NCBI GenBank assembly: GCA_024405255.1
Contig: JAKSOY010000279.1
Span: 1-5,391, forward strand
Direction: 5' to 3'
DNA: 5,391 nucleotides
From: Kiritimatiellia bacterium
GTDB lineage: Bacteria > Verrucomicrobiota > Kiritimatiellia > RFP12 > UBA1067
Positions within the stretch are counted from its first letter, which is position 1; each line of letters begins with the position of its first letter. A program made the translations under genes and the position numbers. Below are positions 1 to 5,391 of this stretch, piece by piece. Under the pieces are notes generated by a model. It worked only from the letters and a program-made list of their open reading frames with translations, made no database searches and had not been told where the DNA came from.

Positions 1-2149
1 CGCCCTTCACGATATCCTCGTGACGAATCTTCCAGTCCGTGATCGGCTTGCCGTTGAGTGTCACCGACTTCACGTACTTGTTCTCCTTTGAAAGTCCTTT
101 AGCCAAGACTGTAAAAGAGGTGTAGGTCGAAGGTGTAGGTCTACAGTGGAGTGTCACCTTCTCTATTTGCGGTGCGCCGAGGACGTATTCGCCGCCGCAG
201 GGGTTGAACGGATAGAAGCCCATTGCGGAGAAGAGATACCACGCGCTCATCTGTCCGCAGTCGTCGTTGCCGCAGAGTCCGTCCGGCTTCGGCAGGTAAA
301 ACTTGTCGAAAACCTCACGAATCCGCTCCGCCGCCTTTTCGGGATGTCCGACCTGCGGATAGAAATAAATGACATGATGGCTCGGCTCGTTGCCGTGGAC
401 GTACTGTCCGATGAGCCCCGTGACATCCACAAGCTCCCCCATCCCCTCTGTCTTGGACGGGGCCTTGAAAAGCGAATCAAGCTTTGCGACGAATTTCTCC
501 CTGCCGCCCATTGCCGCCACGATTCCCGGCACATCCTGCATCACATGCCATGAATACTGGAACGCATTGCCTTCCGTAAAGTCATTGGCGCGGTCGGCAC
601 CGTGGCCAAGCGCATATGGATCGAACGGTTCGCGCCAGTTGCCCTTCGTGTCCTTGCCGCGCACAAGTCCAAGCGACGGATCGAAGACATTCTTCCAATA
701 CGCCGAGCGCTTGAAGAAAAACGCAGCATCTTCCTTGTGCCCGAGCTTCTCCGCCATCTGCGCCGCGCACCAGTCGTCATAAGCGCACTCCATCGTCCGC
801 GAAACGGACTCGCCCTTGATAAGATCAAACGGATAGTAGCCGTATTGGTCGTAAAGGTCCCAATTCTCTTTCTCCCGCCCTTCGTGCTTCTTCGTCAGCG
901 TCTCCTTAATCTGCGCATAGCATTGTTCGATTGTTCGATTGTTCGGATTGTTCGATTGCGGCCAGATGCCCTTCAACCACGCGTCCACGATCATCGGCAC
1001 CGAATGCGTTCCGATCATACACTGGTTGTCCCGTCCCCACAGCGTCCAAATCGGCAGATACCCCGTCTTCTTCCCCTGCTCCAGCATCGAGTCCACGAAC
1101 TCCGCCGCCTTTTCGGGATAGAGAATCGTGTACATCGGCCCCGCCGCGCGAAACGTGTCCCAGCACGAGAACGTCGAATAGAACGGCTTCTCGCCGACAT
1201 CTGCAATGTTATTCGGCTGAATGCACAGATGGTAGAGCGACGTGTACCAGTTTTTCTTCTGATCATCCGTTCCTTCAATGACCGCCGTGCCGAGAACTTT
1301 ATTCCACTTCTGCCGCGCCGCGTTTCTCACCGCATCAAAGTCCCAGCCCGGGATTTCCGCCTCCAAATTCGCCTTCGCACCTTTTCCCGCCGCCAGCCCG
1401 ACTTTCACCATCAGCGTCTCGCCGTCCTTGAGGTCGAAGTCAAAGACATACCGCTCGCCCTTCTCCTTCGCGTCCGACTTGAGAAGCTTCCGATAGGTCT
1501 TGAGTGGATGGTCGAACTCCACGACAAATCCTGTCTCGCGAAGATTCCAGTTATGCGTCCGTTTCCAGCCCACAACCCGCGTCCGTCCCTCGACCGTCAG
1601 GGAGCTCTCCAAGACATACTTCGCAAGGTTGCCGCCGTTGACAATCCCCCATTGGGTGTCGAGGAGAAGGTGCGCTCCGGCTCCTTTTTCGAAGGTGAAG
1701 CGGTAGATCGCCGCCCGCTCGCTGGCCGTCACCTCGACCCGCACGGAAGAGTCCGTCAGTGTCACCGCATAATAGCCCGGTTTCGCCCGTTCGGATGACT
1801 TGTCAATTCGTGCCGAGAAGTCGGTAGGGCGCGTCGCTCCGCGACCGCCGCAACCAAGGGGGAGGATCCGCACGTCGCCCAGTTCGCAACCTCCCGTGCC
1901 GTTCAAGTGCGTCTGCGAGAAGCCCTTGATTTCCCTGTCCTCGTAGCGGTAGCCGCTGCAATAGTGCCACGATTCCGTGCCGCCATCCGGCGACGCCTGC
2001 ACCATCCCGAACGGCACGCACGCCCCCGGAAACGTATGTCCCGTCGCCGACGTCCCCACGAACGGATCGACATAGTCCGTCAAATCCCCAAACGCCGCGG
2101 ACGCGCACAGCGTCCCGACGGCCACCAGCCCTATCTTCTTTCTGTTCAT
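1..2149 (-). CDS. GH92 family alpha-mannosidase, secreted; 3' end cut by window
   Basis: Exo-acting, calcium-dependent alpha-mannosidase that trims alpha-linked mannose from N-glycans or mannans. The frame is open from ATG 2149 to the window edge (716 codons); family members are usually about 720-780 residues, so only a short C-terminal piece is missing. Residues 1-21 form a signal peptide (MNRKK, then a hydrophobic stretch), so export is likely. The mature start has the family signature YVDPFVGT (26-33) and PFGMVQASPDGG (46-57), followed by FSQTHLNGTG (77-86). The C-terminal catalytic barrel contains EGNAFQYSW (E526), HGNEPSHH (585-592) and GNDDCGQMSAWY (627-638). By analogy with characterised GH92 enzymes, E526 is the candidate acid and D630 the candidate base (inference). 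The start is supported by AAAGGA four bases upstream. An octanucleotide repeat lies inside the gene at residues 398-410. The linkage cleaved (1,2, 1,3 or other) cannot be assigned from sequence alone. Confidence 0.96.
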   Translation of the reverse strand, partial: MNRKKIGLVAVGTLCASAAFGDLTDYVDPFVGTSATGHTFPGACVPFGMVQASPDGGTESWHYCSGYRYEDREIKGFSQTHLNGTGGCELGDVRILPLGCGGRGATRPTDFSARIDKSSERAKPGYYAVTLTDSSVRVEVTASERAAIYRFTFEKGAGAHLLLDTQWGIVNGGNLAKYVLESSLTVEGRTRVVGWKRTHNWNLRETGFVVEFDHPLKTYRKLLKSDAKEKGERYVFDFDLKDGETLMVKVGLAAGKGAKANLEAEIPGWDFDAVRNAARQKWNKVLGTAVIEGTDDQKKNWYTSLYHLCIQPNNIADVGEKPFYSTFSCWDTFRAAGPMYTILYPEKAAEFVDSMLEQGKKTGYLPIWTLWGRDNQCMIGTHSVPMIVDAWLKGIWPQSNNPNNRTIEQCYAQIKETLTKKHEGREKENWDLYDQYGYYPFDLIKGESVSRTMECAYDDWCAAQMAEKLGHKEDAAFFFKRSAYWKNVFDPSLGLVRGKDTKGNWREPFDPYALGHGADRANDFTEGNAFQYSWHVMQDVPGIVAAMGGREKFVAKLDSLFKAPSKTEGMGELVDVTGLIGQYVHGNEPSHHVIYFYPQVGHPEKAAERIREVFDKFYLPKPDGLCGNDDCGQMSAWYLFSAMGFYPFNPCGGEYVLGAPQIEKVTLHCRPTPSTYTSFTVLAKGLSKENKYVKSVTLNGKPITDWKIRHEDIVKG
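922..958. repeat. Octanucleotide tandem repeat (ATTGTTCG) inside GH92
   Basis: Three perfect ATTGTTCG units (922-929, 930-937, 938-945) are followed by one extra G (946), a fourth unit (947-954) and a half unit (955-958). Four 8-bp units plus the extra G make 33 bp, a multiple of three, so the GH92 frame survives. On the coding strand it encodes residues 398-410, QSNNPNNRTIEQC, a polar segment just after the WLKGI motif. Confidence 0.9.
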
Positions 2150-2153
2150 CTGT

Positions 2154-2200
2154 TCCTTTCGTTCACACAAATTGTATTTACGACCAAGACAGACTGACGA
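2154..2200 (-). promoter_or_regulatory. Probable sigma70-type promoter and RBS of the GH92 gene
   Basis: On the minus strand TCGTCA (2200-2195, four of six matches to TTGACA) is followed after 18 bp by TACAAT (2176-2171, five of six matches to TATAAT). Transcription would start near 2164, leaving a leader of about 15 nt that contains GAAAGGA (2160-2154), four bases before the ATG. A second AT-rich box, TATAAA (2211-2206), lies upstream but has no recognisable -35 partner. The assignment is by eye. Confidence 0.4.
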
Positions 2201-2218
2201 CGGATTTTATAGGAAATG

Positions 2219-2246
2219 AAAAACGCGCGGGGGAACCCCGTGCGCG
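2219..2246 (-). terminator. Rho-independent terminator after the three-gene cassette
   Basis: Read on the minus strand, a GC-rich hairpin (2246-2224) is followed directly by TTTTT (2223-2219). The outer stem is CGCGC/GCGCG (2242-2246 with 2224-2228). A small internal loop separates it from a GGGG/CCCC inner stem. It lies 31 bp after the last cassette gene and 69 bp before the GH92 start, so it should separate the two transcription units. Confidence 0.85.
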
Positions 2247-2277
2247 ACTGCCTTAAGCGCTTATTCGCATTCGCTAA

Positions 2278-2499
2278 TCAAGAGGGCCTTGGGAAACCCT
2301 TTTCTTCTGCAATCATATCATAGAGATAAAGCGGTCCTTCTCGATAAAGGCCTGTCTCAGGATCCTGCAGCTTCTTGTATAGCTCAGATTCATAGACAAT
2401 CCGCATCGCTTCCTTGACGTCCAGCGAACGTTCGCGTGCAACCCATTCTACGAGTTCGGAAGTTGCCGCACGGAAAATACTGTCCTGAAGATCAGACAT
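2278..2499 (-). CDS. Uncharacterised 73-residue acidic protein, third gene of the cassette
   Basis: I do not recognise a named family with confidence. The protein is 73 residues, mildly acidic (15 Asp/Glu against 10 Lys/Arg), with no signal peptide or membrane segment, so it is cytoplasmic. Residues 3-44 look like two or three amphipathic helices, for example SELVEWVARERS (14-25) and VKEAMRIVYESELYKKL (28-44). These are followed by a DPETGLY turn (46-52) and a final helix PLYLYDMIAEE (56-66). The ATG overlaps the end of the DUF3990-like gene by 8 bp and has a GGAGG site six bases upstream, so its translation is probably coupled to that gene. The position and acidic character fit an antitoxin, partner or immunity protein for the ART-like protein, but that is inference. 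A terminator follows it. Confidence 0.8.
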   Translation of the reverse strand: MSDLQDSIFRAATSELVEWVARERSLDVKEAMRIVYESELYKKLQDPETGLYREGPLYLYDMIAEEKGFPRPS

Positions 2500-3004
2500 G
2501 AATGGCCTCCACGAATTTCAAAAACTTGTTGGCGACATCTTGCGAATGAATCGAATATTGCATCGTTTGATGTTCGACCTCCTGCAATCTCTTGAGGACA
2601 TATTCCTCCGACATCGTTCCTCGGCGCAATTCATGCAAAAGGTTAACGAGTTTGTCATCCGCCACATATCCATGGACAAGATCATAGCGCCGATCAAGAT
2701 TATGATCCGTAGCTGACCAGACACTGTCTCGATTTGCAACGATAAAGTGCATCCAGTCGAGATCGATACGCGAAAACATCTTCGCTCGGATTCCTGCTTC
2801 TGCAGCAGCCCTCTCGTCAAACGCAAACTTTAGGACAATCTCTTCGCCCACGGCCCTCAACCGTTTGACGCGCTTGGCCATGAACTTTGCGGACTCTAAA
2901 TTCGGCGTCAGGTAAAACCCCTTGCCAAAATCCATGCCACTACGCCCCGCATCCACGTCGGGGGTGTGAAATTCGACATTCGTCCCATGATAAAGGACAA
3001 TCAT
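2492..3004 (-). CDS. DUF3990-like protein with ADP-ribosyltransferase-type motifs
   Basis: A 170-residue cytoplasmic protein without signal peptide or membrane segments. The N-terminus has LYHGTN (4-9) followed by a glycine-containing stretch and GKGFYLTPN (27-35). This is the His...Tyr arrangement of H-Y-E-type ADP-ribosyltransferase folds, in which H6 and Y31 would contact NAD. The later part, YDLVHGYVADD (107-117) then RRGTMSEEYVLKRL (127-140) and QTMQYSIHS (146-154), matches my memory of the DUF3990 family; Q146 or Q149 may replace the usual third Glu. DUF3990 proteins commonly sit beside DUF3791 proteins, as here. Start ATG 3004 is set by the ATGA overlap with the upstream gene and by GGAGG nine bases upstream. 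Modifying a target with NAD as a toxin or effector is a plausible role, but neither activity nor target is shown. An ART-like fold without catalysis is the alternative. Confidence 0.85.
   Translation of the reverse strand: MIVLYHGTNVEFHTPDVDAGRSGMDFGKGFYLTPNLESAKFMAKRVKRLRAVGEEIVLKFAFDERAAAEAGIRAKMFSRIDLDWMHFIVANRDSVWSATDHNLDRRYDLVHGYVADDKLVNLLHELRRGTMSEEYVLKRLQEVEHQTMQYSIHSQDVANKFLKFVEAIHV
2506..2510 (-). promoter_or_regulatory. GGAGG ribosome binding site of the 73-residue protein
   Basis: GGAGG on the minus strand lies six bases before ATG 2499, inside the last codons of the DUF3990-like gene. It fixes the start and indicates independent or coupled translation. Confidence 0.8.
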
Positions 3005-3225
3005 GCGAGCACACCTCCGTTATTGGCACACACCGTTTTGAGGTCGTCCAATGCAACCTGCAGGGAAAGTGTGGATTCCTGCGGGAAGAAATCCATCAGG
3101 AATTCAAGCCCCTTGTTCTTGTACAGGTAACCGAATGAATCACGGTATGCAAGACCATGTGCCTTTGCGAACTCATTGACGCAAAGCACGGCATAATCTA
3201 TCATGTCCACGGTCTTCCCATTCAT
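3001..3225 (-). CDS. DUF3791-like small protein, first gene of the cassette
   Basis: A 74-residue cytoplasmic protein if started at ATG 3225, or 67 residues if started at ATG 3204. The core, from MIDYAVLCVNEFAKAHGL through YLYKNKGLEFLMDFF to STLSLQVALDDLKTVC and NNGG, resembles the small helical DUF3791 family often found next to DUF3990 genes. Its role in such pairs is usually taken as partner or antitoxin; this is inference here. The frame extends upstream to a GTG at 3276, but that lies in a tandem repeat and upstream of a strong -10 box, so I reject it. ATG 3225 coincides with the predicted transcription start and would be leaderless. ATG 3204 has a weak GGGAAG site nine bases upstream. 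The stop overlaps the next gene's ATG by 4 bp (ATGA), so the two are translationally linked. Confidence 0.72.
   Translation of the reverse strand: MNGKTVDMIDYAVLCVNEFAKAHGLAYRDSFGYLYKNKGLEFLMDFFPQESTLSLQVALDDLKTVCANNGGVLA
3014..3018 (-). promoter_or_regulatory. GGAGG ribosome binding site of the DUF3990-like gene
   Basis: GGAGG on the minus strand lies nine bases before ATG 3004, within the final codons of the DUF3791-like gene. It supports the chosen start. Confidence 0.8.
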
Positions 3226-3232
3226 GCCCGTT

Positions 3233-3241
3233 ATTATACCA
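3233..3241 (-). promoter_or_regulatory. Extended -10 promoter of the three-gene cassette
   Basis: The minus strand reads TGGTATAAT (3241-3233): a perfect TATAAT preceded by the extended -10 element TGn. No good -35 box stands 16-18 bp upstream, which is usual for extended -10 promoters. Transcription would start at about 3227-3225, at or next to ATG 3225 of the DUF3791-like gene. Confidence 0.65.
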
Positions 3242-3272
3242 CAATCTCCCCAGGCTAAGCCAGCGGCATTCC

Positions 3273-3300
3273 GCACTAAGCACTAGGCACCAAGCACTGC
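3273..3300. repeat. Four tandem 7-bp repeats (GCACTAA type)
   Basis: GCACTAA, GCACTAG, GCACCAA and GCACTGC follow each other without gaps at 3273, 3280, 3287 and 3294. The shared pattern is GCACYNN. The last unit overlaps the left arm of the neighbouring hairpin by two bases. Confidence 0.8.
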
Positions 3301-3317
3301 GCGACCTCCGGTCGCGC
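3299..3317. repeat. Perfect inverted repeat, 8-bp arms, 3-base loop
   Basis: GCGCGACC (3299-3306) and GGTCGCGC (3310-3317) are exact reverse complements around TCC. The hairpin is GC-rich, but no T-tract follows on either strand, so it is not an obvious intrinsic terminator. It resembles an interspersed repeat element more than a gene-specific signal. Confidence 0.8.
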
Positions 3318-3359
3318 CCATCCGTCGTCAGTTGTCAAAGATCAATCAACGCGCCGCTG

Positions 3360-3415
3360 TCCTCCGTCCTGTCCACCGTAGCATTTGCGCAGGTGGAAGC
3401 CTCGGCGAAGGAGGA
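3360..3415. repeat. Nested imperfect inverted repeat
   Basis: The outer arms TCCTCC (3360-3365) and GGAGGA (3410-3415) enclose the inner arms TCCACC (3372-3377) and GGTGGA (3392-3397), with unequal spacers of 6 and 12 bases. The inner loop is 14 bases. The whole could fold into a branched hairpin or be part of an interspersed element. The arms are short, so chance is possible. Confidence 0.45.
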
Positions 3416-3497
3416 TCGTCGCGCCACAGTCACATTCCCTTTTCGTCCACCATCTTCTCCTTCATTTCATGCCATCACTTATCTACATTTTCCGTCC

Positions 3498-3514
3498 ATG
3501 GGGTCAGACCCCAT
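3498..3514. repeat. Perfect palindrome ATGGGGTCAGACCCCAT
   Basis: Two 8-bp arms (3498-3505 and 3507-3514) are exact reverse complements around a single A. It lies 32 bp after the fucosidase stop. From memory, the core GGGGTCAGACCCC recurs in many bacterial genomes as an interspersed REP-like motif. It could be a mobile repeat or a protein-binding site; there is no T-tract to make it a terminator. Confidence 0.8.
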
Positions 3515-3545
3515 CGCGGCCCGGCCCCTTCTACTTTATCGGCTC

Positions 3546-4919
3546 TCAACGCTCTTCAACAACAAACACATCCGCATTCTTATCACGCAGAAAGCCCGCC
3601 GGCAAGTCAAACGCCATGCCGAATTCGCCCAGCGCCGGATTGTCGATCTGACGCAACGGGAAGCTTTCACCCGTCGTCAGGTGACGCAGGGTCTTCGCCT
3701 TGTCCGTCAGCGCATTGCGCCCGATGAACACCGTCGTTGCGGGAGTGTTCTCGCCCCACATCCGAATCGCATACACCGTTCCGTCCTTGCCCTGCGTAAA
3801 CGCCCAGTCACCGAAACGGCAGGGCGCGATGGGACGCGTCCCGTAAATCGCCGCGCCGAAGCGGTTGAGCCACGCGCCCATCTCTCGCATCCGCTCCACG
3901 GCAGGACGCGGCAGGCGTCCGTCCGGCATCGGACCCACGTTGAGCGCGAGGTTGCCGCCCTTCGCGACGACGTCGATCAACATGTGGATGAGCTGCCGCG
4001 ACGGCTTGTAGAAATCATCGTAGTGATAGCCCCAGTTGTCTGTCATCGTCATGCAGCTTTCCCAGGCGTTTGAACTCGCCGCCCCCGGCACGAACTGCTC
4101 CGGCGTTCGCACGTCCTCGCACGCGCTCCCGCCCTCGCGGTCAACGGCGATAAGCCCGGGCGTCGTCTTCCGCGCCTCGACGATGACGCTCTCGATGTCG
4201 AGGTCCATGTTGCCGCCCTTCTTCATCCATCCGCCGTCCAGCCAGACAATGTCCAGAGGACCGTACCCGCTCACGAGTTCCAAGAGCTGATTGCGGAAGA
4301 ACGCCTTGAACTGGTTCCATTTCTCCGGATGTGCCTTCGTGTCGTAGGTGACGCCGCGATCCGTCACATGCCCGATGCCGCGATTTTCCCAGTAGTCATC
4401 GTGATGCCAGTCGGCCTTTGAGAAATACGCGCCAATGCCAAGTCCACGCTTGCGGCAGGCGTCAAAATACACCTTCACAATGTCCGCGTTCGGATTCGTC
4501 GAGAACGGGCACGCCTTGTCCGTCGTCTTGTAATCCGTGTACTTCGTATCGTAGAGGCAGAAGCCGTCATGGTGCTTCGTCGTGAAGATGACGTACTTGA
4601 ACCCGCCGCGCACCGCCTCGTCCGCCCACTCGTCGGGACGGAAACGCACGGGATTGAAACTGCGATTCAGCGCATAGTACGCCTCCTTGAAGCCATTCGT
4701 CGCCACATCCCGCTCGACCTCGACCCTCGACCAGTGGGCGTCCCTGTCCGACAGCGGCCACGACTCGATGATCCCCGGCTGCGAGTACAGCCCGAAGTGC
4801 ATCATCAGCGCAAGCTTCTGGTCCTTGAACCACTCCATCCGCTCCGGCGAAACACCCGCGCACACGGCCCCGCATATCAGCGAAGCCGCACAACCGATTA
4901 GCATCTTCTTCATTTTCAT
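3546..4919 (-). CDS. GH29 alpha-L-fucosidase, secreted
   Basis: Retaining exo-fucosidase that removes terminal alpha-L-fucose from glycans. The 457 residues are full length for the family. A signal peptide (MKMKK, hydrophobic core, likely cleavage after VCA at 19-21) points to export. The (beta/alpha)8 catalytic barrel starts at LMMHFGLYS (38-46) and includes YVIFTTKHHDGF (109-120), GIGAYFSKADWHH (161-173) and DIVWLDGGW (223-231), in which D228 is the expected nucleophile. E287 in WESC (286-289) is the candidate acid/base by family analogy. GGNLALNVGPMPDG (321-334) closes the barrel, and a small beta-rich C-terminal domain follows from about residue 360. ATG 4919 has AAAGGA three bases upstream; M3 at 4913 would have a more normal nine-base spacing and is an alternative. 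The gene begins 17 bp after the esterase gene, so the two probably form an operon. Linkage preference is not readable from the sequence. Confidence 0.96.
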   Translation of the reverse strand: MKMKKMLIGCAASLICGAVCAGVSPERMEWFKDQKLALMMHFGLYSQPGIIESWPLSDRDAHWSRVEVERDVATNGFKEAYYALNRSFNPVRFRPDEWADEAVRGGFKYVIFTTKHHDGFCLYDTKYTDYKTTDKACPFSTNPNADIVKVYFDACRKRGLGIGAYFSKADWHHDDYWENRGIGHVTDRGVTYDTKAHPEKWNQFKAFFRNQLLELVSGYGPLDIVWLDGGWMKKGGNMDLDIESVIVEARKTTPGLIAVDREGGSACEDVRTPEQFVPGAASSNAWESCMTMTDNWGYHYDDFYKPSRQLIHMLIDVVAKGGNLALNVGPMPDGRLPRPAVERMREMGAWLNRFGAAIYGTRPIAPCRFGDWAFTQGKDGTVYAIRMWGENTPATTVFIGRNALTDKAKTLRHLTTGESFPLRQIDNPALGEFGMAFDLPAGFLRDKNADVFVVEER

Positions 4920-4936
4920 TCGTCCTTTCTCAATAG

Positions 4937-5391
4937 TTACTTGTCAGTTCTGAAAGGCGAAGCCGGAAGCCCTTCCTTATTGTAAAGGTTGCAGTCACCC
5001 ATTGGATTGTCGCGGAACGCGTAGCGGACGGCGACCGGCGCGGGAACGTCTTTCGACGAAACGACAACATCATTGCCGTCAATGGCCGCCTCGGCCCAGA
5101 ACCACTTCTTGTCCGCCCCAGCGATTGCGAAACCGCGAAGCTTGCCGTCAGACTCCGCAGTCGGCATCACGCCGGGCGTGTTCGGACCCTTCTTGCCTGC
5201 GAAGAGTCCGGACCCGACGTGATCGAAGACAATGCGGGCCTTGTCGCCCTCGACCTTCAATTCCCGGAAGATCGGACCCGAGACGACAAGATCCTTTTCT
5301 CCGTAAACGTCACGCCGCGCCCAGAGGGACAGCCTGTAGCCGACGTCATACTTGTTTTTCGGATGAATGTCCTTGGCGTTGCCGATGTCGA
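4937..5391 (-). CDS. Sialate O-acetylesterase-like protein, C-terminal part only
   Basis: The last 150 codons of a SASA-type SGNH-family carbohydrate esterase; the 5' part, including the catalytic Ser block, lies beyond the window. The family removes O-acetyl groups from sialic acids or, in some members, from other acetylated sugars. The visible part begins DIGNAKDIHPKNKYDVG, where DIHPKNK contains the conserved catalytic His (codon 5365-5363). It continues through LSLWARRDVYGEKDLVVSGP and ends RYAFRDNPMGDCNLYNKEG followed by LPASPFRTDK, the typical family terminus. A TTG codon at 5260 could be mistaken for a start, but the family match runs unbroken upstream of it. The gene is followed after 17 bp by the fucosidase. 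Removing acetyl groups before fucose release would make functional sense, although the true substrate is inferred. Confidence 0.94.
   Translation of the reverse strand, partial: DIGNAKDIHPKNKYDVGYRLSLWARRDVYGEKDLVVSGPIFRELKVEGDKARIVFDHVGSGLFAGKKGPNTPGVMPTAESDGKLRGFAIAGADKKWFWAEAAIDGNDVVVSSKDVPAPVAVRYAFRDNPMGDCNLYNKEGLPASPFRTDK

Follow-up and report, generated by a model that had tools for sequence, protein, structure and literature searches.

We examined a stretch of 5,391 nucleotides (hereafter the window) from a Kiritimatiellia bacterium (GenBank assembly GCA_024405255.1, contig JAKSOY010000279.1, positions 1 to 5,391 of the forward strand). At 2278..3241 it carries three short minus-strand genes in the order A, B, C, with GH92 and GH29 genes on either side. 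A preliminary description had taken this trio for a three-part toxin-antitoxin (TA)-like, phage-defence or effector module. The TA-like, three-part character is well supported by the analysis below, and defence stands as a catalogued candidate only (PDC-M13). We think it fairly probable that the trio is a TA module in which an ADP-ribosyltransferase (ART) toxin, B, is held by a two-part antitoxin made of A and C. Profile searches of each protein, a check suggested in the preliminary description, gave the following assignments:

3001..3225, minus strand: gene A, 74 aa, DUF3791 (Pfam PF12668, E = 4.7e-12) and PADLOC PDC-M13A (E = 1.5e-23), proposed antitoxin half
2492..3004, minus strand: gene B, 170 aa, DUF3990 (Pfam PF13151, E = 1.2e-35) and PDC-M13B (E = 3.8e-34), predicted ART-fold toxin
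2278..2499, minus strand: gene C, 73 aa, without a Pfam family, PDC-M13C (E = 1.7e-19), proposed other antitoxin half

Genes A and B overlap by 4 bp (3001-3004) and B and C by 8 bp (2492-2499), as had been described, and A likely starts at the ATG at 3225, which matches the starts of near relatives. The DUF3791 match of A, also anticipated, is above the Pfam cut-off. B had been called DUF3990-like in its C-terminal half; the family was correctly named, and the restriction to one half is rejected because the match covers residues 3-159, nearly the whole protein. The Pfam search returned no family for C, whose motif DPETGLYREG is kept in 11/11 aligned relatives. No helix-turn-helix (HTH) domain, such as a DNA-binding antitoxin that regulates its own operon may carry, was found among the Pfam matches of window A or C; many TA antitoxins have none. 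With its overlaps and conserved partnership, the gene layout is that of the adjacent, presumably co-transcribed toxin and antitoxin genes of a type II TA system.

The three proteins match the models for the first, second and third gene of the PADLOC phage-defence candidate PDC-M13. The composition of the trio is thus already known, and we reject the earlier view that no described system has it. What is new is the anatomy, namely the fold of B, its conserved residues, and the permutations and fusions of its partners. PADLOC offers no mechanism for PDC-M13, whereas roles for A, B and C are proposed here; its letters go by position, so that the PADLOC A, B and C lists mix both gene orders. PDC-M13 was counted 3324 times across 6530 rumen genomes (PMC13356809). 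PADLOC lists such candidates via their embedding in defence loci, and most of them still await validation (PMC12988326). In the portions of the literature searched we found neither a mechanism for PDC-M13 nor a functional study of the trio. Two other candidates, PDC-M10 and PDC-M42, likewise have a DUF3990-type toxin as first gene. They differ from the trio in that PDC-M10 has a single partner (M10B, about 150 aa), whose end matches C and whose start, with less certainty, matches A, and in that the partner in PDC-M42 is unrelated to A or C and carries a C-terminal HTH.

Structure prediction of the 170-residue B, another check that had been proposed, gave a model with an ART fold (predicted local distance difference test score, pLDDT, 95.5). 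Its best structural matches include the TA toxins ParT and MbcT, and 48 of the 50 matches listed are, by title, what we take to be known ARTs; the other two titles are uninformative. DUF3990 belongs to Pfam's ART clan (PMC7955679). Conserved residues in B are H6 and Y31, both at the positions given earlier, together with R92, D117 and Q149. Q149 is present in 147 of 149 B sequences and E at position 149 in none, and the H-Y-E class to which B had been assigned is rejected on this count. By its residues the active site would be of an H-Y-Q class, with Q149, judged from its location on a late strand of the model, the presumed counterpart of the catalytic E. ParT/ParS, MbcT/MbcA and RES-Xre, all among the top structural matches, resemble the window in having an ART-fold toxin that adjoins its antitoxin. 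Window B differs from their toxins in being DUF3990 by sequence, a Pfam search at E 1 giving no RES domain. Each of those pairs is known with a single antitoxin protein.

DUF3990 is also borne by the C-terminus of Serratia Rhs5 (PMC4524185), and B might by analogy be a secreted effector with immunity proteins. We regard this as extremely improbable. The Rhs5 domain lies within a large type VI secretion system Rhs protein and is accompanied by a different small immunity gene, whereas window B is a bare 170-residue domain, its first strand beginning at residue 2 of the model, with no leader or carrier part, and its gene overlaps both neighbours.

To compare loci, we took the best 80 of at least 365 B relatives; these were chosen for likeness to window B, and the sample therefore favours the order A-B-C. 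With the starting profiles, A, B and C hits occurred together in 73 of the 80 loci, so that the neighbourhood survey called for in the preliminary description does find the trio in other genomes. Neither outcome named there as refuting, a predicted structure of B lacking an ART fold or a trio that fails to recur elsewhere, was thus obtained. Improved profiles applied to 175 loci gave 148 distinct full-length B domains, arranged as 104 A-B-C, 16 B-C-A, 2 C~A-B and 1 A-B~C (~ marks a fusion), 7 B-M10B, 10 B-M42B and 8 others. Separately recognised A and C modules lie alongside 123 of the 148 (125 once L140 and L141 are corrected), and the 7 further domains adjoin M10B, which resembles A fused to C. 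As for the 8 others, L140 and L141 become A-B-C when the neighbouring stretch is read (L237, L252); L017, L110, L153 and L162 run into the edge of their contig; L117 is disrupted by a frame resembling that of a transposase, on the far side of which C and A are found in L128; and L125 is without any profile-recognised partner. Genome samples from two phyla, taken in order of match quality and capped at 30 loci each, contributed 42 distinct B domains, comprising 13 A-B-C, 11 B-C-A, 4 B-M10B, 8 B-M42B and 6 others (L140 and L141 among them). The closest relatives of B with named hosts, among the matches listed, are a Lentisphaerae record (48% identity) and a Verrucomicrobia record (44%); the host of the window may accordingly be a gut or rumen member of this group.

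At L140/L141 with L237/L252 (genomes G322 and G324), an A-B-C trio stands beside a B-M10B pair in opposite orientation, placing two DUF3990 systems in one spot. The PDC-M42 class (L146, L144, L156, L092, L154, L122, L123, L160, L106 and L129) consists of DUF3990 and a protein of about 215 aa with a C-terminal HTH, without A or C.

Several lines of evidence join A and C to each other. C~A fusions occur in L012 and L080, the DUF3791 half passing the cut-off. In the model of the L012 fusion (pLDDT 94.2; predicted template modelling score 0.63; 18 sequences), a succession of long, short, short and long helices is seen and then repeats. The end of M10B matches C with Prob 96.7 and its start matches A with Prob 74.6, against 0.2 for a B control; by profile comparison the C half of M10B is firm and the A half likely. 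On the reading proposed here, PDC-M13 and PDC-M10 would be a split and a probable fused version of one design. The profiles of A and C match each other at Prob 58 and 80 in two comparisons, against 0.2 for B and C, two C genes (in G417 and G449) exceed the DUF3791 cut-off, and 4 of 100 C proteins, window C not among them, match DUF3791 at E 0.01 or better, suggesting that A and C may be distant relatives of each other. In the 71 loci that a 90% filter left of 78, distances correlate at 0.73 for A-B, 0.77 for B-C and 0.71 for A-C, with 0 of 2000 permutations as high for each pair; these figures include shared host ancestry.

Such likeness bears on a different division of labour, known from CmdTAC, in which one of A and C would neutralise B and the other would be a sensor, chaperone or stability factor that is captured by a phage product, freeing the toxin. 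CmdTAC is a three-gene ART defence system with an HY-[E,D,Q] triad, in which the third protein stabilises the antitoxin and senses a capsid protein (PMC11618068), and PDC-M13, which each of the window's three genes matches, is a phage-defence candidate. The third protein of CmdTAC is however SecB-like, whereas A and C have no match to a SecB-like family (Pfam, E 1), and none of the three proteins draws a CmdTAC model in PADLOC. Moreover, A and C look alike and are fused in both orders, or nearly so, which suggests equal parts and not an antitoxin plus chaperone. We consider a CmdTAC-like split unlikely.

Loci in decay point to B as the toxin. We surveyed 83 loci obtained by searching genomes for DUF3990 and DUF3791; several of these loci show the same place. 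In 11 places B is broken, cut or missing although one or more partners still have an open frame: one each in G021, G287, G131, G449, G422 (A only), G413, G436, G484 and G416, and two in G005 (M42 type). In G484 and G416, A and C lie within one frame. The reverse case, a B that is intact, clear of contig edges and without a recognised partner, is represented by L125 alone and is doubtful; at L133 both the B and the partner sides have decayed. L120, L121 and L163 were dropped from the count, being partial B-like matches only, and the count also leaves out four DUF3791 matches with no intact DUF3990 listed close to them: a pair in G436, one in G484 at the edge of a contig and one in G001 next to a short fragment. 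TA biology predicts this order of decay, in which the toxin goes first and the antitoxins later. It is the opposite of what would be expected if B were a wanted enzyme with accessory partners, that is, an active ART that is no toxin and serves as a signalling enzyme modifying its partners or as a housekeeping protein. The portions of the literature searched contain no toxicity test of B, which leaves room for such a role; given also that the nearest solved folds include TA toxins, we hold it to be very improbable.

At L232, L235, L236 and L238, A and C remain with a B remnant or none, A and C sharing a frame in L236 and L238. The shared frame of L238 has an extra C-terminal stretch, as in C proteins with an HTH-like addition. 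Beside the decayed cassette of L236 lies a frame (L236:1067-2074) that resembles a REP-associated transposase.

Some observations weigh against a toxin held by two related antitoxin halves. With other alignments, the match of M10B to A falls from Prob 74.6 to 10.7. The mutual match of the A and C profiles reaches no more than Prob 58 and 80, and 3 C proteins match Pfam DUF2059 at E 0.01 or better. Finally, assembly errors may lie behind some of the decay cases.

On the reading we favour, B would be a small NAD-dependent ADP-ribosyltransferase toxin, and A and C small helical proteins that jointly form one split antitoxin on it. If the balance were upset, whether because the module is lost, because A or C is turned over or because a phage acts as trigger, the freed B would modify an essential target and growth would stop. 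A role of the trio in phage defence is plausible. The same toxin could also serve a plain selfish or addiction module, acting by post-segregational killing with no phage role. In keeping with this, B relatives occur on 71 of 72,556 plasmid records, DUF3990 is carried by 30 of the 194 genomes from one phylum and by 12 of the 299 from a second, and the neighbours of sampled trios are mostly ordinary genes. Against it, PADLOC lists PDC-M13 via embedding in defence loci (PMC12988326), and one relative (L164) lies within a Cas operon; a pure addiction module seems to us possible, if somewhat unlikely. B relatives are further present on 6 of 50,697 phage records and in 11 IMG/VR loci, and the 7 distinct B domains of viral loci are arranged as 3 A-B-C, 3 B-C-A and 1 B-M10B. 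Like TA and defence genes, the module is patchily distributed; it is mobile, yet was mostly seen on chromosomal contigs here.

Both partners also occur with further domains or proteins attached. An Xre HTH, a repressor domain, forms the N-terminus of A in L020 (HTH_3, E = 2e-11), L041 (4.4e-12) and L165 (2e-11), the fusions being 142-155 aa long and first in an A-B-C operon; L165:4414-5536 is from Phocaeicola vulgatus ATCC 8482, as is L022. In five C proteins the C-terminus is extended, with an HTH match below the curated cut-off in L140 and L155 and none in the other three. In L164 (8420-10786, minus strand; genome G222, contig C296), a single 788-residue frame encodes both C and Cas3c, with PDC-M13C at 7-70 (E = 8.5e-23) and Cas3c at 76-777 (E = 5.6e-215). 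A and B lie just ahead of this C~Cas3 frame, which is followed by Cas5c, Cas8c and Cas7c (type I-C); it is a single case. One could speculate that the split antitoxin is a plug-in guard, whereby C on Cas3 would let the B toxin police CRISPR immunity and the loss or disabling of Cas3 would free B and arrest the cell, an idea we rate as quite unlikely. If true, C, being able to relocate and fuse, would let a cell place half of the antidote on the protein to be watched.

Two further signals surround the trio:

3233..3241, minus strand: extended -10 element TGGTATAAT, found by pattern search, 7 nt ahead of the ATG of A
2228..2240, minus strand: possible weak terminator after C, a GC hairpin followed by a U-run

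The extended -10 promoter reported earlier is confirmed as an exact TGGTATAAT (1 match versus 0.04 expected; 8 of 200 shuffles have one), and given the gap of only 7 nt to the ATG the transcript would have little or no leader. The strong terminator placed after C is unsupported. A hairpin and U-run are present, but the fold z-score is -0.96, 36 of 200 shuffles fold equally well, and the window holds 3 such sites, fewer than the shuffle mean of 5.5. Similarly, the cassette had been described as inserted among glycan-degradation genes; the GH92 and GH29 flanks bear out the setting and not the insertion: in the short stretches available around 8 of the nearest GH92 relatives the trio and GH29 are both absent in 8/8, and no empty site was found. 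By eye, a short tandem repeat with a ttgttcgat-like unit lies within the GH92 gene (923-957), and the spacer separating GH29 from the trio holds a palindrome, atggggtcagaccccat (3498-3514). Palindromes of this kind can be leftovers of mobile repeats.

To our knowledge, ART TA systems have one antitoxin, or an antitoxin plus chaperone, and in the portions of the literature searched we found two alike half-antitoxins, whether split, permuted or fused, for none of them. If our reading is true, such halves would be a new layout for ART TA systems. The common PDC-M13 would thereby gain a testable mechanism, with B as ART toxin and A and C as antitoxin halves, and proposed roles would be supplied for DUF3990, DUF3791 and the unnamed C family.
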